A DNA stretch of 64,000 bases from Halobacterium sp. CBA1132 (lineage in GTDB: Archaea > Halobacteriota > Halobacteria > Halobacteriales > Halobacteriaceae), in NCBI RefSeq assembly GCF_001485535.1, contig NZ_BCMZ01000001.1:62001-126000 (forward strand), given 5' to 3'. Numbering within the stretch: position 1 is the first letter of the stretch; every line of letters begins with the position of its first letter. Of this stretch, positions 1,574 to 16,929 are shown one piece after another. The notes beneath the pieces were generated by a model. The model was not told the DNA's origin and did no database searches. It saw only the letters and a program-made list of their open reading frames with translations. Made by a program: the position numbers and the translations under genes.

Positions 1574-1681
1574 ATAGAAACCGTAGGCGGAACTCACTGA
1601 GAACGAACGACAGCAGCTAGCTGGCACTTTCCCCCGGAGACACCCCACCATGTCGAGTGTAATAGCCCGATAGAAACCGTA
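1574..1681. repeat. 12-bp direct repeat pair ATAGAAACCGTA
   Basis: ATAGAAACCGTA occurs at 1574-1585 and again at 1670-1681, 96 bp apart, between the decayed oxidase and the first island operon. An AGCTAGCT octamer follows each copy (1615 and 1682). It could mark an island end or a short duplication; I did not find a further copy near the right end of the island. Confidence 0.5.
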
Positions 1682-1683
1682 AG

Positions 1684-3315
1684 CTAGCTGTTGGCAGCGG
1701 CTTCGATATCTTCCCCGAGACGTGCCTGCGGATAATCCGCACCCAGCACAACAACACCCGAGTCATGGTCTCCGACAGGCTTCCAATTCAGCGCGGCCAC
1801 CGTCGAAACCCACGGAACTAGCTCGGTGTCCCCGTTAGCCAGTTTATCGAACGCGGGAGGGAAGGCAAACAGCGAGGAGTCAATATCACAGTCCAACTCG
1901 GTTGCTGCGTCCCACAGGACCTCACTCGCCCGCCGTAGCTGTAATTCATCCTTTGACTCATCCCAATACTCGTCCAGCTGAATCTCCCAGCCCTGTGCTG
2001 TCTCCTCGGCCAATCCGAACGCCTCGAGCTTGTCCTTATTATTGTAGTAGGAACCTTGGGACTTGGTGAACGAATCGTGGTTTAGAACATCCGTCGGAGA
2101 GAGTGGTTCGTCCGCTACGAGGAGCGTTTTCAGCAAAACGCCGACTGTCGGTGAATGCCTCGGAAGCAGTCGGTTCGCTGGCAGCGACGCTAACCCCGCA
2201 ATTATGCCCCGATATCCAATCTCGTCAGCCAGTGACCCATCTAACTGGAGTAACGCGTCTACGACATCATAGACAGACCCCGTTAACCCACCAAAGAACC
2301 CGACCAGATTCTGCATAGTCATAGAATCTGGCTCCGGACACAGCCCCTTCCGCGTCAGAGCTACCCGGATTGCCTTTCTGATGCCATCCTCTGACCACGT
2401 ATCGGCGACCATTATTGGCAGGCGCATCGGGACATGGTCGTCCCGGTCGTCCTGTCGATGCTCCTCATCAAACGCCGCTAACCGAGCCTGTAATGGCTCG
2501 ACATAGCCACTCACTCGATTCCCAGCAACTACCCACGAGACGGTCGTCGTTGCCTGCCGAAACCGTTCTTCCGCGAGCGGTTCCGTCTGCTCTCGCTTCG
2601 CCGAATCCGGCTCGTAGACATTCCTGTAGAAACTATGCCCACTATAGAGGGCATGCTTCGGAACCGTCCTCGCCAAGAGCTCAAGAAACTCATCGTCTTG
2701 CGTTCGATTCTGTTCTGGAACCCGAATCTCGACCACGACATCAATCCCGAGATGATCGTAAAGAGCTGTAGCCGACGCGAACAACCCGTGAGCCTCTTTG
2801 AGTAACTCTGCCCGTTCTGCTCCTCCCTTTCTCGATACTGTCCCAAGGGAACCACGCAACCCATTCCGTGCCGTCTTCACCCGCTCACGGAATGACTCAT
2901 ACGAATCATCTTGCTGGAGATAGCCGACCTGTCTGGCGTCCCGGAGGAGTTCGCGCGTTACCTCAGATTCCAATCCGCCCCTACAGGTAGCCCACAGGTT
3001 ATCAGCTGCCAATCCCGTCCGCCACAGCTTATCCGAAAACACAGCTGACGCCAACCGTAACAACGTCTGGAACGCTCCCGTATACTGCACCGAGACAACA
3101 AGTGAATCATCGAGGAGACTCACATAGGTCACCCGTGGGTCATTCCACTCCTCAACCGGATAATCGACGAAACTCACGCCCTCGTTTTGAGCGGCTGCAA
3201 GCACCCGAGCATGGAGCGGCCACGAACTCCCGTTATACTTCGGAAGCCACTGCACAAACTTCGACGTCTCCCCAGCACTCCCAGTCTCGGCCAGTAGTTG
3301 TTCGGGAGTAGTCAT
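1684..3315 (-). CDS. Hypothetical protein with C-terminal winged-helix-like region (second gene of island operon)
   Basis: A 543-residue soluble acidic protein of no family I recognise. A helix-turn-helix/winged-helix-like segment is visible around residues 390-450 (VGVLLKTLLVADEPLSPTDV, then a Lys/Tyr-rich wing). The N-terminal half is mixed alpha/beta without a Walker or nuclease motif I can identify. It overlaps the preceding gene by 4 bp (ATGA type), so the two are translationally coupled and probably act together. Its TAG stop lies inside an AGCTAGCT octamer. Low GC and position mark it as island cargo. A replication, regulation or defence role are all possible; none is shown by the sequence. 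Confidence 0.75.
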   Translation of the reverse strand: MTTPEQLLAETGSAGETSKFVQWLPKYNGSSWPLHARVLAAAQNEGVSFVDYPVEEWNDPRVTYVSLLDDSLVVSVQYTGAFQTLLRLASAVFSDKLWRTGLAADNLWATCRGGLESEVTRELLRDARQVGYLQQDDSYESFRERVKTARNGLRGSLGTVSRKGGAERAELLKEAHGLFASATALYDHLGIDVVVEIRVPEQNRTQDDEFLELLARTVPKHALYSGHSFYRNVYEPDSAKREQTEPLAEERFRQATTTVSWVVAGNRVSGYVEPLQARLAAFDEEHRQDDRDDHVPMRLPIMVADTWSEDGIRKAIRVALTRKGLCPEPDSMTMQNLVGFFGGLTGSVYDVVDALLQLDGSLADEIGYRGIIAGLASLPANRLLPRHSPTVGVLLKTLLVADEPLSPTDVLNHDSFTKSQGSYYNNKDKLEAFGLAEETAQGWEIQLDEYWDESKDELQLRRASEVLWDAATELDCDIDSSLFAFPPAFDKLANGDTELVPWVSTVAALNWKPVGDHDSGVVVLGADYPQARLGEDIEAAANS

Positions 3316-4463
3316 TGGTCTCCCTCCGTGTGGCGCTCCTCGTTTTCACTGTACGTCCTGTCGGGTTGTAACCCGGTCTTGTCGCGGCGCGTCCCATACA
3401 CTGTACATGCTGCCGAGTTGTAACCGGCTTCCTCCGACAGGGACAGAGGATGCCGTATCCGAATTTCGCTGGAATCGTCGTCAACAAGGCCGATGGCAGC
3501 TCTTCCGCGTGTAGTTAGTGAATACCGAGTCGTATTGCCGTTCTGCGTATGCTGGAGGAATTCGTGGTCGTCAGCTAGCTCACCTGCATATCGGCGGATT
3601 GTACTTCGGGAGTACGCATCTCCAAGAACTCCGTAGAGATGGCTTAGTGGGGCGGTAGACCGGTCTTCAAACGGCATGAGGATGCTGACCTTCCCTGTTC
3701 GGCTCTTCATCGTGACGAGCTGGTCGTAGGCCTCCCGGAGGGGTGTAGATGCGACACCGTGGGGCGGCCGGTGTGCCGGGTTGCAATATTCGGTAACAGC
3801 CTCAATCCAGTCGGCGTGGCGTAAGCGGATGCGCCGTTCGACGGCTGGTGTCGTACAGATGGTGATTGGGGCAACCCGTCCAAGTGCGAGCAGATATTGG
3901 AGCGAACGATTACGTGTGCGGGGATGAGTCGAGTCTAGCCACTCGTCACCGTCGAAGTCGAAAACGAGGTGCGGGAGCGTCCACTCGTCCAAGTTTTTCT
4001 CGAGGATGAGGAACAGGATTCCGTATCCCCGTTGGAATTCCTCCCACGTTGGGTCGCCCAATAGGTAGGTCGCTCGGCCGGTTGCGAAGTTCGAGAGGAG
4101 AGATTCCGCACTAGCTTTCTGCGCTTGACGGGCATCGCCAAGCTTCTCCAGTCGATGATAGCGTAGTGTATAGCGTGCGAGAAGCCGGGCAAACTCTCCG
4201 CCGTAGGCCTCCATACTGTTGTTCTGGAGAAATTCAGCTAGCTCTTTCTCGTAGCCCTTTGTTGGGTCAAGGTCGAGAGTGGCTTGACAAACGGTGAGGA
4301 GGTCGTCGGCGAGATGGGGAAGGAGTTTGTTGAGGCAGCGAGGGAGCCAGTCGGAGGCTGTAGGCCCGACATCGTCGATAACGATGGTTGAGTCGGATTC
4401 TGGGGTAATTGGTTGGAAGGTAATGCCTGCGTCGAGACGTTCGATCGAATTCGGAGATTGCAT
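3312..4463 (-). CDS. Hypothetical winged-helix protein (first gene of island operon)
   Basis: A 383-residue protein with a C-terminal winged helix at about residues 265-330 (SHLYGVLGDAYSRSTIRRYA, then a wing ending in TRYSLTTRGRAAIGL), typical of archaeal ArsR/MarR-like DNA-binding folds. The N-terminal 250 residues are helical with a conserved-looking acidic core (VFDFDGDEWLDS) but no motif I can name. It is the promoter-proximal gene of a two-gene operon with the 543-residue protein, overlapping it by 4 bp. Both proteins carry a DNA-binding-like module near the C terminus, which suggests joint action on DNA. The gene contains two AGCTAGCT octamers (3573, 4236). Function unknown. Confidence 0.75.
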   Translation of the reverse strand: MQSPNSIERLDAGITFQPITPESDSTIVIDDVGPTASDWLPRCLNKLLPHLADDLLTVCQATLDLDPTKGYEKELAEFLQNNSMEAYGGEFARLLARYTLRYHRLEKLGDARQAQKASAESLLSNFATGRATYLLGDPTWEEFQRGYGILFLILEKNLDEWTLPHLVFDFDGDEWLDSTHPRTRNRSLQYLLALGRVAPITICTTPAVERRIRLRHADWIEAVTEYCNPAHRPPHGVASTPLREAYDQLVTMKSRTGKVSILMPFEDRSTAPLSHLYGVLGDAYSRSTIRRYAGELADDHEFLQHTQNGNTTRYSLTTRGRAAIGLVDDDSSEIRIRHPLSLSEEAGYNSAACTVYGTRRDKTGLQPDRTYSENEERHTEGDQ

Positions 4464-4851
4464 AATTTTGGAAGGGTGGTGGATATTCAGGCTACAGATT
4501 CCGGTTCTATGGCGGTGTATCGTCTGATTAAGTGGTTCAGCGCACTGCTGTAGGAATCCGTTTGAGCGGCTGCTGGTTAGGGGTTAGCCAGCTAGTCACT
4601 CACTTCATGGATCGAGAATTAGGTCAGAGTAGGTCCTATCAAAACTCCATTAATTAGGCGCTATCGGTGATGGAGTATCCGTTAGGTTGGTGTGCGAACG
4701 TACCACCGAATCTTCTGCTAAGTTTCGTTGATGTTCTCTGCATCCTGCTGAATACAGGGCGCGAGTTGGTCAGCGGAGATGGTTTCGATAGAACTCAGGT
4801 CGGTAAGAAAAAATTTCTAAGAGGGTAGGTTCTGAATGGGGTTCCTATGCG
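4464..4851. other. 388-bp divergent intergenic region
   Basis: It separates the minus-strand operon (start 4463) from the plus-strand nuclease gene. It is AT-rich for this genome, with CCATTAATTAGG near 4650 and an A/T run AAAAAATTTCTAAG near 4808-4821 that could be the promoter of the downstream gene. I see no ORF or RNA gene. Confidence 0.4.
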
Positions 4852-5784
4852 GTGTATGATTTCGGCGGCCAACCAGCGTGGGACCGGGACGGACTCAATC
4901 GGGGCGGTGCAGTCGTGAGACTCTTGTCGTGGAACGTGCAGGGGTCTGTCCCGCCTGCGGGGAGCAAAGACCGAATTAGAAAGCAGGTGTCGTTCATCGG
5001 GGAGCAGTTGGATCAGCCAGACATCGTGATGCTCAACGAGGTGACAACCGTCCAGCGCGAACTATGGCTGGACCTGCTTTGTGAAGAGCAGGGGTACACC
5101 AAGATTGTGGATACGCTCGATTGGGGGCAGGAACTCCGTGAGAGCAACGTTCCTCCCCACCACGAGTTCATCCATACGAGCGGACAAATCACCGCCGTCC
5201 ATGAGAATGCGGACGTGGGAGACCTCGAACGTCGGCGTCCGAGCATCAGGAGTGGTCCGTGGGAGAACTCGGAGATGAAAGACTGGAGTACGAACTTCCC
5301 GGAGAAGATTCTCAATTCGGAGGTCCAGATTGCCGGACAATCGGTTGACCTCTGGAACGTCCGCACCGTGCCGGGGAGCATGTACGGGGAGGAGAAAATC
5401 AAGATACTGGAGAACGTCTACGCCCGAATCACCAAGTCCGACCCGGAGAGGTGCATACTGGCGGGCGACCTCAATATCCCTAAGGCCGAGCAAGCAGATG
5501 GGGCGGTAGTCTCGTGGGGCGAGAATAAGCCAGAGAGCATCCGCGAGCGGTGGATATCGGCAGAACTGGATGTCATGACGGGTTTTTCGGATGTCGGATT
5601 GGTGGATGCGTTCAGGCACGTCCACGGTTATGGAGACCTTGATACCGAGGACACCAGTCACGAATCGAGGCGAATTGACCACATCTTCGCGTCCGAGTCA
5701 CTGAACCCTGAGCGGTGCTGGTACGACCACGACGGTTACGAGTGTAGCGACCATGCCCCGATGTTGATGGAGTTCTCGGTCTAG
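4852..5784 (+). CDS. Endonuclease/exonuclease/phosphatase (EEP) family protein
   Basis: The protein (310 residues from GTG 4852; a GTG at 4915 would begin directly at the fold with MRLLSWNVQG) shows the complete EEP active-site pattern: SWNVQ (Asn), MLNEVT (metal-binding Glu), GDLNIP (Asp-Asn), RRIDHIF (Asp) and a terminal SDHAP (Asp-His). These metal-dependent phosphodiesterases cleave DNA, RNA or phospho-substrates; the substrate here is unknown. There is no signal peptide, so it should be cytoplasmic. It stands alone in the island, divergent from the operon on its left and convergent with a restriction-endonuclease-like gene on its right, which fits a nucleic-acid-directed role. The shorter start is as plausible as the longer. 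Confidence 0.8.
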   Translation: MYDFGGQPAWDRDGLNRGGAVVRLLSWNVQGSVPPAGSKDRIRKQVSFIGEQLDQPDIVMLNEVTTVQRELWLDLLCEEQGYTKIVDTLDWGQELRESNVPPHHEFIHTSGQITAVHENADVGDLERRRPSIRSGPWENSEMKDWSTNFPEKILNSEVQIAGQSVDLWNVRTVPGSMYGEEKIKILENVYARITKSDPERCILAGDLNIPKAEQADGAVVSWGENKPESIRERWISAELDVMTGFSDVGLVDAFRHVHGYGDLDTEDTSHESRRIDHIFASESLNPERCWYDHDGYECSDHAPMLMEFSV

Positions 5785-6020
5785 CGAATTTGTTGAAACC
5801 ATCAGCCAGAGATAGTTTCAGAGCCTGTGACCGACCCAGCCTCTATATCCAGCAGGCACTAATGGCATCGTTCGGATAGATCAATCCCCATTTCGATAAC
5901 TGCTTTCCCTGTATTTGCCAACGTCGGGTTAAATATGTTAGACGCTGAGAATTTCAACAGAGCCACTAGAGACGTTCATCGACATTCCCGCTATCTCGCC
6001 GTACCCAGCTAGCTTGGGTG

Positions 6021-6608
6021 TTACGTGGTCGGATATTCCCAGACGAAGAGTGGAATTGAGAAATTGAAGTACTGCTCTAACACCGCTTGAACGTCGTTTT
6101 CTGTACGTCCGAGTGTCGGGAAATTCACGTAGGATGGAATCAACAAGACACCTACATCAGCTACTCTCTTGCTAGAGAATACACTCGGGTCACGGTGAGC
6201 GGCTTCCATCTTCATCAGATGCCAGTTAGCCCGCATCTGCTCCCCGCTTTCGTGTTCAACGACCACCCCATCTTTGTACGCATCAAAGCTAGCTCGCCGC
6301 GAGACTAGATCAAAATCCGTTGTCGTCTCGAACTTCACAGAGACCTCCTGCACCCAGTTAACTGGATTGAGCAGTTCTCGTCGCTCACTTAGGTTCTGAT
6401 TCCCTCCCCCGTGTTCGATATACGCCTCCGCAATTGCTGGTAACTCCTGTTTCAGTCCCTTTCGCTCTACGATGTCTCGTCCGCCGTTGAACGACCACGT
6501 GTCTGTTCTCCGGATTTCCGGCTTCATTACGTAACGCGATACTCTACGCCACCATACATCTTTAGCCGAAGCGGACAATTCTTTGTTGTAGAACTCGGAC
6601 GCAGTCAA
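6021..6608 (-). CDS. BglII/BstYI-like restriction endonuclease (orphan)
   Basis: 195 residues. The central stretch FDAYKDGVVVEHES places Asp109, Glu118 and Glu120 as D-x8-E-x-E, the spacing of the catalytic D-x8-E-x-Q of R.BglII, with Glu in place of Gln. The following helix and RVADVGVLLIP strand also look like the BglII/BstYI fold. If active it would cut a short palindromic DNA site with Mg2+. No DNA methyltransferase gene occurs anywhere in the window, so the host would need modification from elsewhere, a site absent from its genome, or an inactive or regulated enzyme. Two AGCTAGCT octamers lie in or just behind the gene (6287, 6007). Family assignment is moderate, specificity unknown. Confidence 0.55.
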   Translation of the reverse strand: MTASEFYNKELSASAKDVWWRRVSRYVMKPEIRRTDTWSFNGGRDIVERKGLKQELPAIAEAYIEHGGGNQNLSERRELLNPVNWVQEVSVKFETTTDFDLVSRRASFDAYKDGVVVEHESGEQMRANWHLMKMEAAHRDPSVFSSKRVADVGVLLIPSYVNFPTLGRTENDVQAVLEQYFNFSIPLFVWEYPTT

Positions 6609-6840
6609 TCGTGTATTTGACCCAATCCAGAACTATCGTAGCTAATGCCTTATTCAGTTCATTTGTTCTGCTTCCTACCGTGGAAAGGGAATACAAGCAC
6701 CACCGTTCGGACGGGCAAACAGACAACGAGAGCTAGTTTTTGCTGGCGTCCGGTGACAACCGCCACCCTCTTCTTCGCTAATTCCGGATACCCCTTTCCG
6801 ACCCTATTGGGTATACTGGTCGGGATGCTGCGCCCTCTCG

Positions 6841-6860
6841 TCACGGCTAATTAGCCGTGA
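6841..6860. promoter_or_regulatory. Perfect 20-bp palindrome, probable operator
   Basis: TCACGGCTAATTAGCCGTGA is its own reverse complement over all 20 bases. It ends 20 nt before a TATA-like TTTATTTT (6881-6888), itself about 26 nt before the ATG at 6914. A dimeric regulator could bind just upstream of the BRE/TATA region. The encoded winged-helix protein directly downstream is the obvious candidate for autoregulation. Confidence 0.6.
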
Positions 6861-6880
6861 TTTTGGGGTTCGGATTCAGC

Positions 6881-6888
6881 TTTATTTT
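6881..6888 (+). promoter_or_regulatory. TATA box of the winged-helix/coiled-coil gene
   Basis: TTTATTTT centred about 29 nt upstream of ATG 6914 predicts a transcription start within a few bases of the ATG, a near-leaderless mRNA. This decides the start at 6914 over the upstream GTG at 6857, which overlaps the palindrome. Confidence 0.5.
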
Positions 6889-6913
6889 CGCTGGAATGCG
6901 ACCGGAGACTGCT

Positions 6914-7795
6914 ATGACTGGCTCTCTTGATCTCGATAAATGGAAGGACCGCATGGTTCTCCTCGCGATAGCTGACGCAGGCGGTACGGCGACTGTTCCA
7001 GAACTCCGCGACGACCTCGAACCTCTACTTGGAGAGGACAGCCTCGGGTCGAAGATTAGCTATCGTGCCGATAAAACCGACCTCATCGAGAAGCGTGAAT
7101 CCGACCAGACAGCCGACAACGGCGTCCCATACAACGAATACTATCTGACGAATCACGCGTGCGACCTCCTCTTCGGTGACAGTCTCGTCGAGGACCTCCG
7201 TGAGGAACGGAATGATCTCAGTGCGCTTTCCGAGGAACGTCGGTTAGCGGTTCTCTTGGCCGATATGAACCGACTCAAACGTGAGGTGTCGGAGTTAACG
7301 TCGGTAGCAGCAGGCGAAGGCGCTCTTGCAGAGTCTCTCGATGATGACGATATTGTCCAGCTGTCCAGCCGTCTCGATAGTATATCTGGACGTCTTGGAG
7401 CGGTGATTCGGCGGCTCAACAAGCTTGAGGCCCGGAATGGTGAGCGTGAACTTCCTGCGTACAGTGAGATTGATGACCGGGTTGCGAAGACGGAGACTCG
7501 TGTCGAAGAACTTGAGGAGGTGGTAGATGAGCGCATCAACTCTTTCGTGGCTGAGCAGGGCGAGAAGATGAAAGACCTCCATGACCGGTTGCAGGAGATT
7601 GAGCGTCGGACACAGCAAATAGAGGGCGAACATTCACGCTATGGTGATTATGACAATCTCTGGCGATTAACTCTGCTCAATACTGCATTAGCTGCTGATG
7701 CCGGTGAGATGACGCTGGAGCAGGCAGCCAAACAAAACCATTTGGCCGTGCTGGAACACCTCTCACGGACCGTCTTCGATGATTTAGAGGTCTAA
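6914..7795 (+). CDS. Winged-helix protein with long coiled coil
   Basis: 293 residues from ATG 6914. The N terminus (residues 1-75) is a winged helix (LLAIADAGGTATVPELRDDL, then YRADKTDLIEK and YYLTNHACDLLF). Residues about 100-250 are almost entirely heptad-like coiled coil (SELTSVAAGEGALAES, VAKTETRVEELEEVVDERI, LHDRLQEIERRTQQIEGE), and a short helical tail follows. This resembles archaeal DNA-binding regulators or segregation-type proteins that dimerise through a coiled coil, but no named family is clear. Two bases separate it from the next gene, with which it forms an operon. The upstream perfect palindrome suggests it controls its own promoter. Confidence 0.7.
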   Translation: MTGSLDLDKWKDRMVLLAIADAGGTATVPELRDDLEPLLGEDSLGSKISYRADKTDLIEKRESDQTADNGVPYNEYYLTNHACDLLFGDSLVEDLREERNDLSALSEERRLAVLLADMNRLKREVSELTSVAAGEGALAESLDDDDIVQLSSRLDSISGRLGAVIRRLNKLEARNGERELPAYSEIDDRVAKTETRVEELEEVVDERINSFVAEQGEKMKDLHDRLQEIERRTQQIEGEHSRYGDYDNLWRLTLLNTALAADAGEMTLEQAAKQNHLAVLEHLSRTVFDDLEV

Positions 7796-7797
7796 GA

Positions 7798-8121: not shown

Positions 8122-8285
8122 ATGTTTCGCGACTGGTGACTGATGTCGTCGCGCTCCTGTTCGCTCCCGAATTCGTTGTCGAGAGCGTCGATAATTAGGT
8201 ACTTGATTGGTGTTCCGGAGTCGTCGCTTTCGTCTCGGAGGTTGTCGTGCAGGTCGTCTGGGATTTCGATGTTGACTCGTGACAT
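8118..8285 (-). CDS. Ribbon-helix-helix (CopG/Arc-like) small DNA-binding protein
   Basis: 55 residues beginning MSRVNIEIPDDLHDNL, the strand-plus-helix opening of CopG/Arc/MetJ repressors, followed by a second helix (GTPIKYLIIDALDNEF). Such proteins dimerise through the N-terminal strand and bind operator DNA; in mobile elements they act as copy-control, excision or antitoxin regulators. The ATG at 8285 is chosen because the fold starts there, although the frame stays open further upstream. It is transcribed towards the operon on its left and divergently from the integrase on its right, a usual position for a regulator of integration genes. No toxin partner is adjacent. Confidence 0.65.
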   Translation of the reverse strand: MSRVNIEIPDDLHDNLRDESDDSGTPIKYLIIDALDNEFGSEQERDDISHQSRNI

Positions 8286-9810: not shown

Positions 9811-10773
9811 CTAGCTAGTGGCGTCGTTCGCCGTCATACGAGCCATCACACGACGAGTCCGTTCGTGTTCCCACAGTGTTTCTAAAACGCTACGGAGCGA
9901 AAGGACGGTAACTGCGTCGTCCTTTGTATCTGGTTGTGTTCGCGTGAATAGATATGTATCGACGGTAGTTTGCTCACTAGAGGGGTGTTCTCGCACGATT
10001 TCACCAAGTTTCTCTACAGCAGTATCCGGCTGAGATTGGGTGTTTTTGACTTCACCGTAGACTGTTCGTCCCTCAGATTCGCCTAATAAGTCCACTTGGT
10101 GGGTTCCTGTTGGCCCTCCAGTATCCATGAGGGGGCAGTAGCTTGGATCGACAAGTCGGAGGTACTCCTCACAAAGAAGTTCTAATTGGTTCGTAGCATA
10201 GGAGACCGGGTCCTTTGGTGGGAGTGATTCTCCGGCCATGAGTGCTTGAAGTTGATGTTCGACCACCGGCCATGCAGTGAATGACGTATATGGCGGCTCG
10301 TATGCGGATAGGAAGTAGTCTGCACCGCGTAGCTCTTTCAGGCTATCTTCTTCGAGCTTTGTGCCTTTATACACGTATTCGAACTCGTCTACCCGTGACT
10401 CGGCTGTTTCAATATCCGAAATAATCTCTGGTGTATGGGGTGATTCATCTGGAATGCCGACTATGAGCTTATCCGCATCTTTCGGAATTACACCAAGCTT
10501 CCGCGCAGTAGTTCCTGCGTGCCTATTGGCAAGACGTGTAAGGCATAGATGTGCCTCGTCATCCGTAATTGCGTCATTCAGGTCCTCGATGTCTTGTGGT
10601 TCCTCGTCGTAGTCTTCCTTATCGAATGAAGTTTGATTCTCGTAGTGGACAAGGACATAGCCGTCCTTCCAGAGTTGCTTGAGAGTAGCCGATGGGGCTG
10701 ACATCCCCAAGTGATTAAACATCGCTTCTTTGTCTTGGTATGACATCAATTGAAACGCAGTGGGAAGGTGCAT
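9811..10773 (-). CDS. PD-(D/E)XK nuclease-like hypothetical protein
   Basis: 320 residues (or 311 from the Met at residue 10). The N-terminal 60 residues look like a winged-helix or regulatory part (SAPSATLKQLWKDGYVLVHY). The C-terminal domain contains QVDLLGESEGRTVYGEVKN, a D-x12-E-x-K motif (Asp228, Glu241, Lys243) on consecutive strands, typical of restriction-endonuclease-fold proteins. Conserved-looking cysteines (201, 213) and LVDPSYCP precede it. It may be a DNA nuclease or Holliday-junction-like enzyme; the family is not one I recognise. The stop lies within ACTAGCTAGT, a palindrome related to the island octamer. It is convergent with integrase 1. Confidence 0.6.
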   Translation of the reverse strand: MHLPTAFQLMSYQDKEAMFNHLGMSAPSATLKQLWKDGYVLVHYENQTSFDKEDYDEEPQDIEDLNDAITDDEAHLCLTRLANRHAGTTARKLGVIPKDADKLIVGIPDESPHTPEIISDIETAESRVDEFEYVYKGTKLEEDSLKELRGADYFLSAYEPPYTSFTAWPVVEHQLQALMAGESLPPKDPVSYATNQLELLCEEYLRLVDPSYCPLMDTGGPTGTHQVDLLGESEGRTVYGEVKNTQSQPDTAVEKLGEIVREHPSSEQTTVDTYLFTRTQPDTKDDAVTVLSLRSVLETLWEHERTRRVMARMTANDATS

Positions 10774-10844
10774 AAAATCCCCGGTAAAACACTCAAACTA
10801 AACACAACTCCCGCACCATCTATATTATTCTGTCCTACAGAAAG

Positions 10845-10856
10845 TTAATATAATTA
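10845..10856 (+). promoter_or_regulatory. AT-rich promoter element of the 10876 gene
   Basis: GTTAATATAATT lies about 20-31 nt before ATG 10876 and fits a haloarchaeal TATA box giving a leaderless message. It lies too close to the other candidate ATG at 10864 to serve it. A second TATA-like CTATATTATT lies at 10821-10830. Confidence 0.4.
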
Positions 10857-10875
10857 CGTCTGGATGATTTTGGTA

Positions 10876-11448
10876 ATGGGTTGGATTCGCAATCTTCTCT
10901 CCCCGAATGGAACCAGTATCGAAGACGCCCGGCCAGAGCGTGACGAACGGTTTCCACGCCACACCTACGGGCCGGGATACCCTATTGTCATTCACCGCCA
11001 AGAACTCGAAGACCTAGTCAATCTCTTGGAAATGGAAAGCAAAGCACCAGACGGGTGGGATAATTCGCCTCTTCTGAGCCGGGAAGACTTCGAGGAAATT
11101 GTTGAAGACCAAATTGGCGATGTTGCCGGTGGACTCCCATCACCTGAAGAGCGCCGTAGTGAAATCCGCGAAATCATCGAACTGTGGAGCGAACAGCTTA
11201 CCGGCTCAGAAGACACCGTCTGGACGACTATTGGTACGGACTATCAACTCAAATTCTATATCACCTACTGTGAGGGGCGAGCAAGTTCAGACGAGGACGA
11301 CTTCGAAGAGACGACCGAACTCGATACAGCACGCGAAATTCTCGACCGGATACAGGTCGCCCAAGACACCGATTCAAACCTCGCGATTGTGCATAAACGC
11401 GACCTCCCGCTTGAGGAGCCTAAGAACGGCTCGTCAGAAACGAGCTAG
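10876..11448 (+). CDS. Hypothetical acidic protein with a decayed paralogue downstream
   Basis: 190 residues from ATG 10876 (194 from ATG 10864). It opens with MGWIRNLLSPN, an amphipathic helix, and is otherwise soluble, acidic and without a recognised domain. The C-terminal tail HKRDLPLEEP...SSETS is repeated almost exactly at 13169-13229, where only the end of a paralogous gene survives, so this is a family carried by more than one element copy. The TAG stop is inside an AGCTAGCT octamer in both copies. Upstream lies the divergent PD-(D/E)XK-like gene; downstream the convergent HNH gene. Function unknown. Confidence 0.6.
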   Translation: MGWIRNLLSPNGTSIEDARPERDERFPRHTYGPGYPIVIHRQELEDLVNLLEMESKAPDGWDNSPLLSREDFEEIVEDQIGDVAGGLPSPEERRSEIREIIELWSEQLTGSEDTVWTTIGTDYQLKFYITYCEGRASSDEDDFEETTELDTAREILDRIQVAQDTDSNLAIVHKRDLPLEEPKNGSSETS

Positions 11449-11483
11449 CTGTCCTTTCTGCTGATGATAATATTCTTGCCGGA

Positions 11484-12770
11484 TTAGGAGGGCTGTTGCG
11501 TGGCTATTTTCGCCATCTCTTTTTCGATCGTTTTCTGGAGATAATAGTCACCAATCAATTTTGACGCAATTAACAACCCAATAGCGAGAAGGACGAACAA
11601 CACGAGACTCCCGGCCGCGTACGATATTCCCATTATTCCAAGACCGAGAAGAACGGCTCCGCCCACAATTTTATTCCCGGCTTTATTATACTCCTTCGAC
11701 AGTCTCCGATACTCGGTAACGTCTTCTGGCAACCGGTACCCTTCCTTACAGGCTTCCTCCACCACCTTTGTAACTAACTTCAATCCCTGCATATCATATT
11801 GACTATGTATCACTTCCATATTCGTTTCCGTTAAACCCCACTCTGTTTGACAATCTTCGCAACGTGCGAGAGTCAGTTGGTATTGCCCAGCGACGTTTTC
11901 TAGATTCTTCTGGTGAAGCTCCTCACCGCAGACAGGACAGTTATTAGGTTGGTTTACAACGGCTTGACTGCATTTTCCACTAAGGGTCGCAGTTTTCTCC
12001 TTGATAGTACGCAGGAGAAACTGAATGACTTCCTCAGACGCATTAATGTACTGCTCGGCAACTCTCTCCAATTCATCACTTGCCATATTAAGATCGACAA
12101 TATCTGATTGAGCGATCTTCCGTTGCTCCTTAACGCGGACCGAAATGTCGCGGTGATCCGCGACAGCCGTTTGAACGTCGTGAGATATGCTGGAGAGGTT
12201 TTGATACGCCTCTTGAGGTGCTTGTCCTTGATGTTCATTCGGAAGTGGGATGTCCCGAACTTCCGAAGTCGCCTGTTCAAACTCTTCTAAGTTGTTCGTG
12301 ACTTCCTCCACTACTTCCCGAAATTTGATGTTTAACCGGTCAGACTCATCTTCTTCCGAGAGCATGGCAAACATTTTGGCGTATTCAGCTAGTTCCTCCA
12401 AATCATCGGCAAAGCTGTCGATTATATTGACCGTCTTTATAAGTTGGTTGCCCAGCTGGACTTCATCGGAAACAGCGTACGGGTAGCGTTCAATAGAGAG
12501 TGGAAATTGCCATTCAGTGCCCTTCTGAGTTTCTGTCTCGGAGGGGGCCATGCTATTGCCATGAATAGCATTATGACACTCTCTACAGAGTGTTTTCAGG
12601 TTGCTCTTCTGATGGGTTCCACCTTTACTTTTCGGGACGATATGATGAGCATGCAATTCCGCATCGCCACCCGATCCCCCCTTCGAACCGCAGTTCTGGC
12701 ATTTATAATTATCCCGTTGATACACCTCTTTTCTTCGCGTATCCCAATCAGAAGGATATCCGTTCGTCAT
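11484..12770 (-). CDS. HNH endonuclease fused to coiled coil, zinc ribbon and two transmembrane helices
   Basis: 428 residues with an unusual order. An N-terminal HNH nuclease (about 10-72) has zinc-type pairs C24/C27 and C62/C65, the His pair at 42-43 (AHHIVPKS), Asn57 and His66/His70. A long helical or coiled region (100-265) follows, then a second zinc ribbon (CPVCGEE...CEDCQTEW, about 273-305). Near the C terminus is a hydrophobic pair (VGGAVLLGLGIMGISYA and LVLFVLLAIGLLIAS) ending in a charged tail. This predicts a membrane-anchored nuclease facing the cytoplasm. Such nuclease-plus-membrane designs occur among antiviral effectors, but that role is inference here. Low GC marks it as island cargo. 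Confidence 0.75.
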   Translation of the reverse strand: MTNGYPSDWDTRRKEVYQRDNYKCQNCGSKGGSGGDAELHAHHIVPKSKGGTHQKSNLKTLCRECHNAIHGNSMAPSETETQKGTEWQFPLSIERYPYAVSDEVQLGNQLIKTVNIIDSFADDLEELAEYAKMFAMLSEEDESDRLNIKFREVVEEVTNNLEEFEQATSEVRDIPLPNEHQGQAPQEAYQNLSSISHDVQTAVADHRDISVRVKEQRKIAQSDIVDLNMASDELERVAEQYINASEEVIQFLLRTIKEKTATLSGKCSQAVVNQPNNCPVCGEELHQKNLENVAGQYQLTLARCEDCQTEWGLTETNMEVIHSQYDMQGLKLVTKVVEEACKEGYRLPEDVTEYRRLSKEYNKAGNKIVGGAVLLGLGIMGISYAAGSLVLFVLLAIGLLIASKLIGDYYLQKTIEKEMAKIATQQPS

Positions 12771-12944
12771 TATCTGTCAGATGTGAAGCGGCGTTAGAAT
12801 ATCTGGTGGTGACTGTGTTCACTATTTGGCGGGCAATTACAACCCCACTTACCGGCTGTTTCGTCACAAATCGCATTTCACAAAAGCCGACATTCTCTAA
12901 TCGACTTCAGTTCGTTTATTATTGTACGCTAATGCGAGCCGGAT

Positions 12945-13049
12945 ATGAACTGCACCAAGTGTGGTGCCGAGATTGAGGCGACGAGTGAGTCAGCGACTGA
13001 AGCCGTTGTCACGCACTTCGAGCGTGTACACGACCTCGGCCAACGGTAA
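12945..13049 (+). CDS. 34-residue mini zinc-finger protein
   Basis: ATG 12945 opens a short frame starting MNCTKCGAEIEA and ending at TAA 13047. Cys3, Cys6, His24 and His29 give C-x2-C-x17-H-x4-H, a C2H2-like single zinc finger of the kind found as stand-alone small proteins in haloarchaea and their viruses. AT-rich sequence with TTTATTATTG lies about 28 nt upstream and could be its TATA box. It is likely to bind nucleic acid or protein; length alone makes the call uncertain, but the Cys/His pattern is hard to get by chance. Confidence 0.55.
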   Translation: MNCTKCGAEIEATSESATEAVVTHFERVHDLGQR

Positions 13050-13064
13050 CTGTAGTTGAGCGAC

Positions 13065-13166
13065 CTATATCTCGTCTAAGAACTCTTGACGGGCTTTGAT
13101 GCTGCATCACGAGGAAGGGCTTCGCAACGCTTCTCGTCTCTCCCGTGCGGACAGCTAGCTTGATGT
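13065..13166 (-). pseudogene. Remnant of a third tyrosine recombinase
   Basis: Read on the minus strand this gives HQASCPHGRDEKRCEALPRD followed by AASK, matching YQASCPHGRDKENCEALPRD then AASK of integrase 2. An internal deletion follows, then QEFLDEI and a stop matching the C-terminal REFLDEI of the same protein. The catalytic HxxR and Tyr are gone. It records a lost second copy of an element with an integrase-2-like recombinase. Confidence 0.8.
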
Positions 13167-13168
13167 GG

Positions 13169-13229
13169 ATAAACGCGATCTTCCACTTGAGGAGCCTGAG
13201 AAAGACTCGTTAGAAACGAGCTAGCTGTC
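13169..13229 (+). pseudogene. 3' remnant of a paralogue of the 10876-11448 gene
   Basis: The sequence encodes DKRDLPLEEPEKDSLETS and a TAG stop, against HKRDLPLEEPKNGSSETS in the intact gene. About 60 bases align with a few mostly silent or conservative changes, and both copies end in AGCTAGCTGTC. Nothing of the gene's 5' part remains; it abuts the integrase remnant, so one deletion joined the two. Confidence 0.8.
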
Positions 13230-13348
13230 GTAATATCGCAGATTTAGACTAGCTGCTTCTTCCGTAGCCGGTACGCGGCTATCCACACACTATTTTCGAA
13301 CTACTGGAGTATTTGCTGGCAGACGTCGGTGTCGTGTTGCGCCTTGAT

Positions 13349-13867
13349 TTACTCGATGACATCCGACTCACGTGTGCGAAGAAGCCGTTCAATTTCATCC
13401 AATATATCGCGAATGAGTTTTGCTGACGGGGAGGACACCTCGATAGTTCCATACTGCTCGTGATCATAGGTGTACGGTTTATAGAACGTCCGTCGGGTTA
13501 GCGCACTTTTGACCGTTTCTGCTGCACTGCACGACAAGTGTTCCGTCGCGCGAGCCGCCGCCTGCTGGTATTGACGGTCACACCGTGCCTCGTTGGAGAG
13601 AATATACTCAGCTACGAATACCGGCCATGTTTCTTTCAGGGCTTCTGTGGCTTTCCATGAGTATGGTGTGTTAGGAAGGGTCGCATCATCTTCTACCGAG
13701 ATACCTGCTGCTTCGAACTGTTCTTCCAGTTCGTCCCTGATGAGGGAGTCCACGTAGCCGCTATCGAATACCTCATCGAGGACTTCATAGATCAGACTGT
13801 ATTCGGATGGGTCTTGGTTGACGGTGTTATTGCGTAGGTCGGGCGAGTCATAATCGTCTAATGCCAT
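13349..13867 (-). CDS. Hypothetical island protein
   Basis: 172 residues, acidic, with no motif I recognise; there is no signal peptide or membrane helix. It has helical composition in the middle (WKATEALKETWPVFVAEYIL) and a C-terminal helix IRDILDEIERLLRT. A single gene, it lies in the same orientation as the dGTPase operon that starts about 1.7 kb upstream but is separated from it by a 220-bp gap rich in CTAG tetramers (13937-13985). Function unknown. Confidence 0.6.
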   Translation of the reverse strand: MALDDYDSPDLRNNTVNQDPSEYSLIYEVLDEVFDSGYVDSLIRDELEEQFEAAGISVEDDATLPNTPYSWKATEALKETWPVFVAEYILSNEARCDRQYQQAAARATEHLSCSAAETVKSALTRRTFYKPYTYDHEQYGTIEVSSPSAKLIRDILDEIERLLRTRESDVIE

Positions 13868-14087
13868 GGTGGGTTTGCTCTATTCCTTGGTTTGGGCCGG
13901 AGATTGTTATAAACGGGCGAGAGAAAGGCTCTTTGCTAGGTACTAGGTGCTAGTTCCCTCCTCACCTAGATTACTAATCGTCCTAGCAATTCGCAGTATA
14001 TCTATGAGAGTCCAATAGTAGCAACCCGGCCTTTGTGAGATTTACAACGGCTAACAGATTCTGGCGTAGGTTGATGAAGATAGGCAA

Positions 14088-15554
14088 TCACCCAACGATG
14101 TCGTTCTGGAGGGCATCTGGGGTATCTCCGCATAGACGCCGGTGTAGTGCTACTGCTTGCCGTTCCGTTAGTGCCGAGATGATATCTGCAACAATTCTAG
14201 ACCGAGGTGAATCATCATGGGTCTTCACCCAATCGTGGAAGGGAGAAGGAATGATGCTTTTTGAGAGGTCTTTTGGGTTTGCCTCGGAATACAGAGCTTC
14301 AAAGAGTTCCCGTAAAATCCGACGCTGACCATGTTGTTGCTGCATCAGCGTTGGATTACTGATGACATAGAACTCTGTCATCGCTTTCAGCATCCGGATC
14401 TCATCTATATACTCTTCCTTTTTGAGATTCCATCGTCCGTCTTCGTTTTCGACGAATACTGCTTCGGGCGATGTTTCTCGTCCTGCTTCCACGTAACGTT
14501 CAACGAGACCGCTTGTGAACTCGCTGAGTGCCTGTCTCTCCGCACTCGTATTTTCGAACGGCGTAACCAACGCTCGATTTGACCCGGACAACTCCTTGGC
14601 GAGATTTTCGAGATGACCCGCCACGTCGAAGGAATTCGGGTCCACCTCTGTATTCTCGTCTAAGTAGTCTTCGAATTTATCAAGGTGGTCTCTGGAACTG
14701 ACGCTATACTGTTCGTACGGGCCTGTAGACGAGTCATTACTCCCCTCGTCAATCGCCTCTCGAAACAGTTCATGAAGCGGGATTAATCCCGCCCGGTAGA
14801 AGTCCATCAGATCATGAATAGCATACGTCAAGTCATCTGCGTAGTCCATAATCTGCGCCTCCAAGGTCTGACGATGGTCGTCGTAAGCCCCTGTCTCTCG
14901 GTAGTCCCCTAGTCCTCGCCGTGCCCAACTGAAGGCTGCCCGGTCACTAGGGTAGTAACCCCACTTGCTATCATTTTTATCCCGGCCCCATGGGTACTTT
15001 AGCATCCCATTAAGTGTGGCACGAGTAAGATTCAGGCCTGTTTCTGGATCTCTATGATCTGCGAGTCGCGTGACGATTCGGAACGATTGTGCGTTCCCCT
15101 CAAACCCGATTTCCTTTTCTGATCCGTTATTTTTCGAATATTCTCTAACGAGGCTGTCTAGCTCATCTTCGCCTGCATGGCCGAATGGTGGATGACCGAT
15201 ATCGTGTGCATGAGCAGCAGCCTCTACCACGTAGGGATCAAGGCTAGTCTTTAGACCTGAGTCCCCCTTAGGGAACTCCCGACCTTCTGTGTACTCCGCT
15301 TGGATATCGTGGCGTTGGTGGATAATACGAGTAAGAGAACTCGCGACTTGTGCAACCTTGAGAGAGTGAGTAAGGCGGTCATGATAAAGGTATGACTCAT
15401 CTGCCCGTGCTACCTGCGTCACTCCCTTTAGCCGCCGAAATTCCCGCGCGTATCGTACACGGTCTCGGTCACGTCGAGACGGAGACCGAAATATTCCTTC
15501 TGAACTGTCTGTTTGACGCTCATACCTCTCTTTGGCCTCGAGATCTACCGTCAT
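14088..15554 (-). CDS. dGTPase-like HD-domain deoxynucleoside triphosphate triphosphohydrolase
   Basis: 488 residues with the HD signature of dGTPases: His63 (HDRLTHSLKV), HAHDIGHPPFGHAGE (His117-Asp118, with His121 and His126) and a later metal Asp in IMDYADDLTYAIHD. The N-terminal RLKGVTQV and the length also match the dGTPase family. The enzyme releases tripolyphosphate from dNTPs, lowering or balancing the nucleotide pool. Eighteen bases upstream ends a winged-helix gene on the same strand, so the two form an operon. In bacteria dGTPases can act as anti-phage enzymes by draining dNTPs; its place in an integrative island beside nucleases makes the same role plausible here, but it is not shown. 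Confidence 0.85.
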   Translation of the reverse strand: MTVDLEAKERYERQTDSSEGIFRSPSRRDRDRVRYAREFRRLKGVTQVARADESYLYHDRLTHSLKVAQVASSLTRIIHQRHDIQAEYTEGREFPKGDSGLKTSLDPYVVEAAAHAHDIGHPPFGHAGEDELDSLVREYSKNNGSEKEIGFEGNAQSFRIVTRLADHRDPETGLNLTRATLNGMLKYPWGRDKNDSKWGYYPSDRAAFSWARRGLGDYRETGAYDDHRQTLEAQIMDYADDLTYAIHDLMDFYRAGLIPLHELFREAIDEGSNDSSTGPYEQYSVSSRDHLDKFEDYLDENTEVDPNSFDVAGHLENLAKELSGSNRALVTPFENTSAERQALSEFTSGLVERYVEAGRETSPEAVFVENEDGRWNLKKEEYIDEIRMLKAMTEFYVISNPTLMQQQHGQRRILRELFEALYSEANPKDLSKSIIPSPFHDWVKTHDDSPRSRIVADIISALTERQAVALHRRLCGDTPDALQNDIVG

Positions 15555-15572
15555 TAAGAATCAGATTGGGAT

Positions 15573-15821
15573 TTATGCAGGCTTTCGCTGAGTCTGCTCG
15601 CCGACGTACTCGTACTCAAAGCTGGGAAGAGAGGCCACCAGCCGTTTCCGCGAAAGGTTATTCATCGCCTCCCGGACAGTATCGTGACTGCAATCTAACT
15701 CCTCCGCAACTTCGGAGATCTTCATCGGCCCCTTTTCTTCTAGCACCCTTAGGACATCCTCCTCGAGCTTTTCTAATTCAACTTCGAGGGATGCCACGTC
15801 TGATCGTGGGTGTTCCATCAC
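15573..15821 (-). CDS. Winged-helix regulator in operon with dGTPase
   Basis: 82 residues. After a short coiled start (LEVELEKLEEDVLRVLEEKG) comes a clean helix-turn-helix (KISEVAEELDCSHDTVREAM) and a wing (RKRLVASLPSFEYEYVG). It is the first gene of the operon and the dGTPase starts 18 nt after it, so it probably controls that enzyme's expression. No sensory domain is visible; a signal would have to act on the small wHTH itself. ATG 15821 or 15818 are equally possible starts. Confidence 0.75.
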   Translation of the reverse strand: MMEHPRSDVASLEVELEKLEEDVLRVLEEKGPMKISEVAEELDCSHDTVREAMNNLSRKRLVASLPSFEYEYVGEQTQRKPA

Positions 15822-15918
15822 ATCGTCTCATTCGCCCCCAAACACTTAATTCTGTATGGCCTACGAAACGTTCTCCAGAATATTCGGTTGTTAGGCTATC
15901 CTTTACGCGATTTTGTAG

Positions 15919-16929
15919 CTATATTTCATCTAAAAACTCTCGCCGTTGCTCCATTTTGTCGCGCTTGCTCCGTTGATCGTAGTGCTGTTCCAAGACATCA
16001 AGCGAAACGTTCGCCCGATCCGACACAGCCCGTTCCGGGATATCTTGACGTAGGTGGTGGGTGATTGCTCCTCGACGTATCGCGTGCGGCGATACGCTTG
16101 ACGGACACTTTGAGGCTGCATCACGAGGTAGGGCCTCGCAGTTTTCCTTGTCTCGCCCGTGCGGGCAGCTAGCTTGATATACACACGGGCGCGTGTAACG
16201 GTACACATAGGCTTGTACCGTACTCTCGTGTATTCGCCCGTAATTCGTCGCTAGCAGTGGTTTCCGTCCATTTTCATCGGTTATATCCGGCCGACGGTCT
16301 TCGATCCAATCGTCCAGTAGTTCGCAGGTTTGGTCGTCAAGAGCGATCATTCGCTCGCCTTCCTTCTTGTTCTTCAGGGGTGTTCCCGAGTCGGGCCTGT
16401 GTTTCGTGTCGAGGTACTGCTCTTCTGGGTTGTAGTCGCGGAGATCGAGTGATTTGACTGCTCCTCGCCGCATCATCGTATGCCATAGCAGCGTGAGCGT
16501 GACGTGTTCGATAGAGGCGTACTGGTACTTCTGGAGGTACGCCAGCACTTGGTCAGCTTCCTCAGCTTCGAGGGTAACGTCGCGCGTGTTCTCTTCTGGT
16601 GTGATATCCGGTGATTGGACTTTTGTGGAGAGGTCCTCTGGGACGGCTTCGATTGCCTCACACCAACGGAGGAACACACGGACAGTGTCCATCTGGGTTT
16701 TCTCCGTGGGCTTCGAGAGGTCCCCTACGTTTCGTCTCCAGATGCGGTATTCGTGGACTTTCCGTCCGGTGAGGTCGTTGAGGTTGTTAATCCCGTTTTC
16801 GTTGCACCACTCTACGAAGTAGCTGAGGCGGGACTTGTGCGAGTAGATGGTCGAACGGGCTAATTCTGCTTCCTTGTCTTGGAGGTACAGTTCGAGCGCG
16901 TGTTCTGGGGTGATTGGTTCGAGTGACAT
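15919..16929 (-). CDS. Tyrosine recombinase/integrase, copy 2
   Basis: 336 residues. A core-binding domain (about 8-105) is followed by a catalytic domain with Arg154 (TMMRRG), Lys186, HAIRR (His282/Arg285) and Tyr317 (HYDQRS). It carries the same four-Cys insert as integrase 1 with identical spacing (C249-x5-C255-x8-C264-x10-C275). It sits at the right end of the island and is transcribed inwards, the usual place for the integrase of an integrated element whose att site lies outside it; the 787-bp gap to its right should then hold the attachment site. The rightmost AGCTAGCT octamer (16167) is inside the gene. Confidence 0.88.
   Translation of the reverse strand: MSLEPITPEHALELYLQDKEAELARSTIYSHKSRLSYFVEWCNENGINNLNDLTGRKVHEYRIWRRNVGDLSKPTEKTQMDTVRVFLRWCEAIEAVPEDLSTKVQSPDITPEENTRDVTLEAEEADQVLAYLQKYQYASIEHVTLTLLWHTMMRRGAVKSLDLRDYNPEEQYLDTKHRPDSGTPLKNKKEGERMIALDDQTCELLDDWIEDRRPDITDENGRKPLLATNYGRIHESTVQAYVYRYTRPCVYQASCPHGRDKENCEALPRDAASKCPSSVSPHAIRRGAITHHLRQDIPERAVSDRANVSLDVLEQHYDQRSKRDKMEQRREFLDEI

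Follow-up and report, generated by a model that had tools for sequence, protein, structure and literature searches.

A palindromic octamer iterated across an integrated haloarchaeal element: possible recognition sites of a dimeric protein

Introduction

Toward one end of a 64,000-nucleotide stretch of DNA from Halobacterium sp. CBA1132 (the window, positions 62001-126000 of contig C1 in genome G000), the eight-base palindrome AGCTAGCT recurs time and again, raising the question of what has accumulated this word and what might read it. Dispersed palindromic sites serve several nucleoid and segregation proteins (parS/ParB, matS/MatP, SlmA, and Noc); like the octamer, these sites are palindromic and scattered over a defined domain of DNA, but they are longer and sparser than the sites described here. 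Polar genome signals, such as Chi, KOPS, and DNA uptake sequences, are asymmetric words with a strand bias; this class is ruled out, as the octamer is its own reverse complement and not a strand-biased asymmetric word. The closest known system is HIP1 of cyanobacteria, although the octamer lacks two of its defining features. HIP1 and the alternate HIPs are, like this octamer, exact short palindromes that are grossly over-represented, recur about once per 1-2 kb, lie in and out of genes, and have an unsettled function, with HIP1 sites close to one per 1000 nt (Elhai 2015, PMC4390886).

The element and its octamers

The copies seen in the window belong to a 44.6-kb element (C1:34,649-79,260) integrated at a tRNA-Arg gene, which begins to the left of the window and fills its positions 1 to 17,260 (Table 1). 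A 19-bp direct repeat, CCCTTCGCGCCCGTCATTC, is found at C1:34636-34654, where it comprises the 3' end of tRNA-Arg (CCG) plus six bases, and again at C1:79242-79260. The element is plasmid-derived and att-bounded, with a GC content of 0.525 in comparison to 0.68 in the flanking chromosome. Homologues of the replication ORF 1684-3315 in other haloarchaea are 27-41% identical, and in long haloarchaeal ORFs a match to 3312-4463 is followed by a match to 1684-3315. The element also carries a parA gene (C1:39747-40523) matching the ParA of C4, a plasmid of the same cell (2.65e-6; itself matching AAA_31 and CbiA), and a ParA of genome G010 (3e-24); a ParA partner ORF (C1:40520-40918) matching phrog_26668; and, looked at as possible enzymes for a Type II restriction-modification site, a Type I HsdM/S/R set along with HNH and Exo_endo_phos proteins. 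Two proteins of HTH_20 type (C1:42933-43478 and 59824-60219) are encoded as well.

Table 1. Octamer sites and element features within the window (window coordinates unless marked C1).
Feature	Position	Strand	Remarks
Right part of integrated element	1..17260		att repeat; left part outside window
AGCTAGCT	1615..1622		62 bp off end of rep ORF 1684-3315
21-bp repeat ACACCCCACCATGTCGAGTGT, outlying copy	1640..1660	+	array itself at C1:59264-61250
AGCTAGCT	1682..1689		spans AGC-TAG end of ORF 1684-3315
Replication protein, C-terminal part (split ORF)	1684..3315	-	phrog_17376, 1e-48, profile 336-887 of 891
Replication protein, N-terminal part	3312..4463	-	matches long haloarchaeal ORFs, most ~880-1185 aa
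AGCTAGCT	3573..3580		within ORF 3312-4463, phase CTA-GCT
AGCTAGCT	4236..4243		within ORF 3312-4463, phase CTA-GCT
AGCTAGCT	6007..6014		~7 bp past stop of ORF 6021-6608
AGCTAGCT	6287..6294		within ORF 6021-6608, phase GCT-AGC; two homologues with one and two mismatches
312-aa coiled-coil protein	6857..7795	+	weak, mostly coiled-coil Pfam matches, all under curated cut-offs
AGCTAGCT	8006..8013		within ORF 7798-8121, phase CTA-GCT
Tyrosine recombinase 1	8620..9738	+	PF00589 2.8e-7
AGCTAGCT	11443..11450		spans AGC-TAG end of ORF 10864-11448
AGCTAGCT	13153..13160		4 bp from edge of 83-bp partial integrase-gene copy
AGCTAGCT	13219..13226		3 bp off edge of 66-bp partial copy of ORF 10864-11448 end
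Tyrosine recombinase 2 (integrase)	15919..16929	-	PF00589 8.5e-8; att repeat 313 bp away
AGCTAGCT	16167..16174		within integrase gene 15919-16929, phase GCT-AGC
attR-like copy of tRNA-Arg 3' end	17242..17260	+	CCCTTCGCGCCCGTCATTC repeat

The original prediction, of eleven exact copies marking an accessory island, was borne out: all eleven are in place, with none elsewhere in the window, and 22 of the 31 copies in the 3.01-Mb genome fall within the element. The full array spans C1:38287-78174, extending left past the window edge, which cuts it. Nor is the octamer equally frequent outside the island, as four copies lie on the 21.6-kb C4 (0.14 expected, p 1.4e-5) and five in the remaining 2.95 Mb. 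The array is restricted to one att-bounded element and, at lower density, to the co-resident plasmid C4.

The early estimate of about 0.2 chance occurrences agrees with the 0.17, 0.29, and 0.38 obtained for window positions 1-20,000 under Markov orders 1, 2, and 3. For the element, composition predicts 0.4-0.8 copies (0.54-0.77 in 44.6 kb) against the 22 seen, an excess of about thirty to forty times chance, while block-wise dinucleotide shuffles (n=200, 47.35 kb) gave a mean of 0.385 and a maximum of 3. When 8-mers were ranked across the island, as had been proposed, AGCTAGCT came out on top, its z of 28 being the highest among those seen at least three times; the next unrelated 8-mer reached 7.9. 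The copies are spread over coding and noncoding DNA with Poisson-like spacing (CV 1.02). With block boundaries set after the copy positions were known, a dense part (C1:56,901-79,000) holds 18 copies in 22.1 kb, about one per 1.2 kb (p 0.002), and a block containing CD-NTase, IS, and HsdMSR (C1:44,001-56,900) holds one copy in 12.9 kb (p 0.005). Defence-type genes (dGTPase-like, HNH) are present in the octamer-dense part too.

Selection on the exact word

Selection works on the DNA word and not on the protein, and a test of codon choice agrees with the DNA-level signal first described. The test covered 38 ORFs, a partial list chosen by length and homology (41 ORFs minus the doubtful 57337-57915 and two beyond the element, with C1:34988-35911 left out). 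Six of 20 [KQE]LA tripeptides spell the octamer, in comparison to 0.27 expected from codon usage, as do two of 39 AS dipeptides (0.054 expected). Coding copies do occur in different phases: among the 22, six read CTA-GCT, two GCT-AGC, and three AGC-TAG with the stop codon, and eleven are outside the gene list. The accompanying description of CTA as a rare leucine codon did not hold, since CTA makes up 129 of the 1095 leucine codons in the listed island genes. Three overlaps with stop codons had been reported. In the window, the copies at 1682 and 11443 are intact ORF ends reading AGC-TAG, and the one at 13219 belongs to a partial, diverged duplicate of the end of the gene carrying 11443. All six listed ORFs ending in AGC use a TAG stop (p 0.0025), three being octamers.

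The exact octamer is the unit. In the element region, 22 of 29 occurrences of GCTAGC are flanked by A and T to give the full word (p ~3e-22). One-mismatch versions, such as a tolerant binder could be expected to leave too, are near background, except for AACTAGCT (5 seen, 1.1-1.4 expected); this tells against a binding protein. A weaker preference is found in both flanks, with the consensus CGCC-AGCTAGCT-GGCG. The flanks of 20 of the 22 copies (two duplicated copies dropped) scored 77; none of 5000 random sets, each given its own best consensus, exceeded a score of 70, and a control drawn from 99 other CTAG sites reached 67 at most. Applied to six of the nine other genome copies (four on C4 and two on C2, leaving out three further copies on C1), the fixed consensus scored 21/48 against 14.4 (p 0.034). 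Flank symmetry, position by position, was not significant (27/80, p 0.057). The octamer is kept in both internal duplicated pairs, which is uninformative at 12-18% divergence. Homologues elsewhere, where the sites might have been shared, do not have them: the octamer stands at none of nine aligned homologous positions, so that long-term conservation is without support, and it is absent from 29 loci (2.6-4.1 kb) around rep homologues. Of the two outcomes named at the outset as refuting, equal frequency outside the island was not seen, but absence from homologous genes in other genomes was.

A putative recognition site

Of the functions originally suggested, that of a binding site, although putative, fits best. 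We give close to an even chance to the view that the 22 copies are dispersed cis-acting recognition sites, selected on the element, for a sequence-specific DNA-binding protein acting as a symmetric dimer. Such a protein would bind the octamer and might be made by the element, or be common to the element and plasmid C4. Since the sites are scattered in a Poisson-like manner over coding and noncoding DNA, their role would presumably be to organise, segregate, or mark the whole element rather than to control single genes. By inspection, the 312-aa coiled-coil protein is a candidate DNA binder. Pfam scans covering part of the element's proteins revealed no ParB-type domain, and no MatP-, SlmA-, or Noc-like protein was identified among those scanned.

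A parS-like centromere would fit the presence of ParA, yet the sites are not clustered by parA, which has one copy within the gene and none in the 330 bp upstream. Six other haloarchaeal parA operons were inspected visually. Five of them, the C4 operon among them, have upstream short repeats that are their own and differ in sequence from the octamer, so a centromere role for this word would be unusual; the sixth, from pNG500, has no clear upstream repeats. In G010, another Halobacterium, a tandem AGCTAGCTCAGCTAGCT upstream of parA (L087:8957) was rejected as a centromere, the surrounding repeats being of the TAGGTA type, and the 14 kb of G010:C3 over which three copies cluster proved, by eye, to be ordinary plasmid ORFs.

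It is possible, if somewhat doubtful, that the octamer is a private, element-wide "address" word, spread over genes and intergenic gaps via selection on codon choice and read by a protein, so that the element and C4 would count as a single unit in segregation, in transfer, or in being shielded from host systems; the co-resident plasmid would then have begun to acquire the word. No array of this kind on an archaeal element was found in the literature (open-licence PMC papers). HIP1 is puzzling in part because its spread over whole genomes makes separation from the host impossible, whereas an element-bound iterated palindrome is a small system: the sites number 22, the boundary is known, and the same cell supplies both a control chromosome and another plasmid carrying few copies. 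With the octamer as bait, the reader protein, if it exists, could be isolated, and the consequences of silent site removal could be measured. Such an array would also serve as a new type of hallmark for archaeal islands of plasmid origin.

Alternative explanations

The octamer may instead mark DNA as HIPs do, with no dedicated binder, accumulating as an orphan methyltransferase methylates its inner CTAG (or AGCT) and a repair or epigenetic process favours the word; we consider this rather unlikely. Its form, its frequency in the densest part, and its scatter through genes and gaps are HIP-like, its core is the CTAG of methyltransferases that are widespread across Halobacteria (PMC6471742), and the host encodes a predicted 341-aa candidate N4/N6 methyltransferase. 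However, the element proteins scanned included no orphan methyltransferase, and enrichment is of the octamer alone. CTAG was said to be avoided. This is true of the surrounding chromosome (20 seen, 71 expected, 78 kb), whereas the island shows no such avoidance (121 vs 134, 47.35 kb); GCTAGC accounts for three of those 20 chromosomal sites, about the base-content level. HIPs are genome-wide, whereas the octamer is confined to the element and, thinly, to one small archaeal plasmid. One-off deviants of HIP1 are biased to the outer bases, whereas first- and last-base deviants here (TGCTAGCT 1, CGCTAGCT 1, GGCTAGCT 0; 0.9-1.7 expected for each) show no enrichment, the commonest deviant being AACTAGCT.

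It is decidedly unlikely that the element arose in a host or lineage rich in AGCTAGCT and carried the word along. The low GC content of the element would suit a foreign origin, and at least one Bathyarchaeota MAG has an excess of the word (584 copies in 2.1 Mb; backward control 41), with 25 seen in comparison to 0.75-1.49 expected in 59 kb of contigs picked for their listed sites. Bathyarchaeota copies often run on as AGCT, however, and those of the element do not. The 390 other haloarchaeal genomes searched, which sample a larger group, included no donor with the same word, and none came near the element's density; for most, totals without positions were obtained, so that a smaller cluster is possible. 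Eight have at least 22 copies in total (G133, G151, G166, G173, G176, G180, G276, and G288). Five of the eight belong to genus g16, in which, as in the Bathyarchaeota MAG DVMM_8, the octamer is numerous but many copies are embedded in longer repeats or in AGCT runs whose flanks are shared (by eye, in stretches mostly around listed sites), and in the densest genome (180 in 3.8 Mb) a longer interspersed repeat accounts for many of the sampled copies. The word is dispersed in G133, G173, and G158 (21 copies), and G288 is near composition (4 seen, 1.4-2.3 expected, 163 kb).

No homologous whole element was found (the contig scans detect close relatives only), and no close relative in phages; among the plasmid matches listed, the element's matches are haloarchaeal and consist of single genes and IS. 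Close relatives were likewise absent for the rep protein in genome or viral contigs and for the ParA partner in viral contigs; C4 had none in plasmids, in phages, or in 12 further genomes from the genus. Scans with an octamer pair pattern returned at least 120 stretches in viral and at least 117 in genome contigs, and most high counts among these 237 loci were tandem repeats. Nine records, found through the pattern itself, were counted whole (backward control 0-41): seven had 584 copies in 2.1 Mb, 883 in 4.2, 212 in 2.0, 271 in 1.2, 203 in 1.1, 133 in 1.8, and 477 in 1.6, and two virus records 19 in 24.6 kb and 8 in 25.8 kb. Composition was checked in four of the nine, of which a Bathyarchaeota MAG is strongly enriched; two were near composition (21 vs 10-15; 19 vs 17-23), and for the fourth, Persicirhabdus, only short contigs were drawn.

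It is highly improbable that a recombinase shuffling modules of the element uses AGCTAGCT for its crossovers. Two homology blocks on C1 (75082-75164 vs 78094-78178 and 75164-75229 vs 73388-73453) do end 3-4 bp past an octamer, and the octamer forms the end of three ORFs; such endpoints, however, occur in one small remnant only, eight copies are within reading frames, and the aligned stretches around the hsdM copy and the copy at window 6287 differ by substitutions, with no gaps. The same gap-free alignments contradict a very remote alternative, that the copies are scars left by excision of a transposon that duplicates a 4-bp AGCT target: the octamer consists of AGCT twice in direct orientation, and some insertion sequences are reported to target CTAG (PMC6471742), but a 4-bp gain would shift reading frames, and both aligned coding copies show substitutions instead. 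Compositional accident or ascertainment by a reader who picked the octamer by eye from one window is scarcely credible, given that the best palindromic octamer (at least 4 copies) in 17 control stretches had a z of 10.8 as against 29, that no null model tried gave 22 copies save Markov orders holding most of the word (orders 4-6 raise the expectation for window positions 1-20,000 to 1.6, 6.2, and 10.1 because most of it is already in the model), and that copies outside the window, invisible to that reader, lift the count from 11 to 22.

Enrichment of the octamer in the integrated element

The octamer, a self-complementary 8-bp word with core CTAG in which GCTAGC is flanked by A and T, is concentrated in an element integrated at a tRNA-Arg gene on the main contig, C1. 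All eleven copies predicted in the window are exact and begin where they had been placed, and the rest of the window is free of the word, as was also claimed. A search of the whole genome (3.01 Mb) found 31 copies: 22 at C1:38287-78174, three more on C1, two on C2 (283 kb), four on the co-resident plasmid C4 (21.6 kb) and none on C3 (121 kb). Equal frequency outside the island, which would have told against the original prediction, is not what these counts show. The reversed word, with identical base content, occurs 25 times genome-wide. Against the 22 copies in the element, 0.54 (Markov order 2) to 0.77 (order 3) are expected, and 200 block shuffles gave a mean of 0.385 and a maximum of 3. 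Among 8-mers with at least three occurrences it has the highest z (28), the next unrelated word reaching 7.9. Neither CTAG (121 seen, 134 expected) nor AGCT (193 seen, 191 expected) is enriched as such in 47.35 kb, and the full octamer makes up 22 of 29 GCTAGC. Its one-mismatch versions, in 12 classes, occur at about expectation, except for AACTAGCT (5 against 1.1-1.4).

The G+C content of C1 drops from about 0.68 to 0.47-0.59 over 34-82 kb. The repeated tRNA-Arg end gives an element of 44.6 kb with its right end at window 17,260, and all 22 octamers lie within the att repeats; the absence of octamers from the 2.7 kb of low-GC sequence past these repeats proves little, since an even spread of 22 copies across C1:34,650-82,000 would leave that stretch empty with a chance of 0.27. 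The gene content of the element reads like that of a cargo-bearing integrated plasmid: it encodes a replication protein split in two (phrog_17376), ParA and a partner ORF, and two tyrosine recombinases. Its defence-type genes encode Type I HsdM/S/R, an oligonucleotide cyclase, HNH and Exo_endo_phos proteins, and a dGTPase-like HD protein.

Features of the element and distribution of octamers along it
Feature	Coordinates	Remark
tRNA-Arg (CCG), end	C1:34648	CCCTTCGCGCCCGTCATTC is its final 13 bases plus 6 more
Left block	C1:34,650-44,000	3 octamers
Sparse block	C1:44,001-56,900	1 octamer; contains cyclase, IS, HsdMSR
Defence block	C1:45193-54867	left of window; CD-NTase (PADLOC cyclase 1.8e-155), Type I HsdM/S/R, YgjP-like protease
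Dense part	C1:56,901-79,000	18 octamers
Repeat region	C1:59264-61250	left of window; gene-poor 2 kb; long ACACCCC..GTGTCGAGTGT repeat; another repeat, 25 bp, present 8 times
Outlying copy of the long repeat	window 1640-1660	
Octamers 36-44 bp ahead of a repeat box	C1:59344, 61202, 63615	
Replication protein	window 1684-4463	two overlapping ORFs (543 + 383 aa)
Octamer pair	C1:75153/75219	adjoins gene remnant
Tyrosine recombinase gene	C1:77919-78929	313 bp from second CCCTTCGCGCCCGTCATTC copy
CCCTTCGCGCCCGTCATTC, second copy	C1:79242-79260	
Rightmost block	C1:79,001-82,000	0 octamers

Octamer spacing is Poisson-like (CV 1.02). With block limits set after the data were seen, binomial tests gave p 0.005 (sparse block) and 0.002 (dense part). 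Since further defence-type genes lie within the dense part, a description as cargo without sites is true of the sparse block alone. There are two close pairs, separated by 66 and 67 bp; the remnant beside the tabulated pair consists of an integrase-gene piece and the end of the neighbouring gene, and both homology blocks end 3-4 bp past an octamer.

In most homologues the replication protein is a single long ORF. The repeat region near these genes is a candidate origin region. The word TGTCGAGTGT occurs 12 times in the element on a single strand (two of the 12 with one mismatch; one at C1:63651) and four times in 81 kb outside. The gene order of the defence block recurs on one Haloarcula plasmid, for HsdM, S and R together with a SprT-type protease.

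Site shape, codon choice and homologous positions

The flanks, analyzed in 20 octamers with two internal duplicates left out, prefer C, C, G, C at -1 to -4 with the complement opposite (21, 19, 17 and 20 of 40). The resulting score of 77 exceeds the maximum of 70 in 5000 random sets, each given its own best consensus, and of 67 with other CTAG sites as the random source. Applied to six other copies in the genome, the fixed consensus matched 21 of 48 positions (14.4 expected, p 0.034); symmetry of the flanks by itself gave p 0.057. T is scarce at -1 partly because T there creates a stop in the CTA-GCT frame.

The proposal that the signal acts at DNA level is borne out by codon choice in 38 ORFs, where six of 20 [KQE]LA tripeptides able to spell the octamer do so (0.27 expected), as do two of 39 AS dipeptides (0.054 expected). 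Three ORFs terminate in an octamer-embedded AGC-TAG. Among the listed element ORFs with AGC as final sense codon, TAG is the stop in six of six, three of them octamers.

Homologous positions in other genomes do not share the word: in aligned genes the octamer is present in 0 of 9 comparisons, four more homology matches that stop short of their site being left out of the count. The two homologues aligned at window 6287 have AACTCGCT and AGCTCGCT there; at 11443 a single homologue, aligned across six of the eight bases, has AGTTAG; at 16167 five of five homologues lack the octamer, three with a gap at the site; and at the hsdM site a Haloarcula plasmid has AACTGGAG. The simplest reading of these alignments is gain of octamers by substitution in the element's lineage; loss in the others is also possible, the comparison having no outgroup.

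Possible roles

The octamers have the look of binding sites for a dimeric protein, as they are self-complementary, have preferred flanks, show selection at DNA level that overrides codon preference, and are limited to one replicon and its co-resident plasmid. In this general sense, with no single role implied, they may be binding sites, a reading to which we give slightly less than an even chance; any one specific role is much less probable. Their scatter across the element argues for a whole-molecule role (such as compaction, segregation or marking) over promoter control. Segregation is plausible given the ParA system; no octamer cluster was found at the element's parA, and parA of C4 is preceded by repeats of another sequence. 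By eye, short element-specific repeats (CATTCA, AACGAA/G, TGAATCA, TAGGTA, GTAACC) precede parA in the loci L402, L405, L406 and L087 (the last from another Halobacterium) and in C4; they are unclear in pNG500 and were not seen in this element.

The titles and abstract openings listed for the octamer word contained no haloarchaeal use of it, and a literature search on over-represented palindromes in haloarchaea and plasmids returned unrelated work only. The CTAG passages of PMC6471742 describe CTAG as under-represented in every genome of Halobacteria analyzed in that work, less so on plasmids; these passages have no bearing on the octamer. The closest described system is the cyanobacterial iterated palindrome HIP1 (PMC4390886); of four HIP features, the octamer array shows one and lacks two, and on the fourth, a cognate methyltransferase, a candidate N4/N6 enzyme is encoded by the host.

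Occurrence in other genomes

At least 22 octamers were found in eight of 390 other haloarchaeal genomes. Five of the eight belong to one genus (g16), where many sampled copies lie within a longer repeat; the octamer is dispersed in genomes G133 and G173 and near composition in G288 (163 kb counted). The other twelve genomes of the same genus as the host have 0-11 octamers each. Each of 17 control stretches of haloarchaeal plasmids or contigs (35-60 kb; three from the host genome, one of these picked for its two octamers) contains 0, 1 or 2 copies, and among these stretches the best palindromic octamer with at least four copies reaches z of at most 10.8, against 29 in the element. Eight g16 loci (L060, L064, L066, L068-L072), from several genomes, carry an interspersed octamer-bearing repeat, AGCTAGCTACTCCCG..GAGAGACCGC, and its reverse.

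Outside haloarchaea, searching with the pattern itself found a Bathyarchaeota MAG with 584 octamers in 2.1 Mb and a virus contig (L151; 24.6 kb, podovirus-like by eye) with 19, including 12 in 12.4 kb where 1.5-4.5 are expected; in both, the flanks often continue as AGCT runs. Across the surveyed haloarchaeal genomes the control word TCGATCGA occurs 1000-1554 times in some genomes of two families (f3, f4) and fewer than 50 times in other members of those families, a contrast that, as a guess only, might be linked to GATC methylation.
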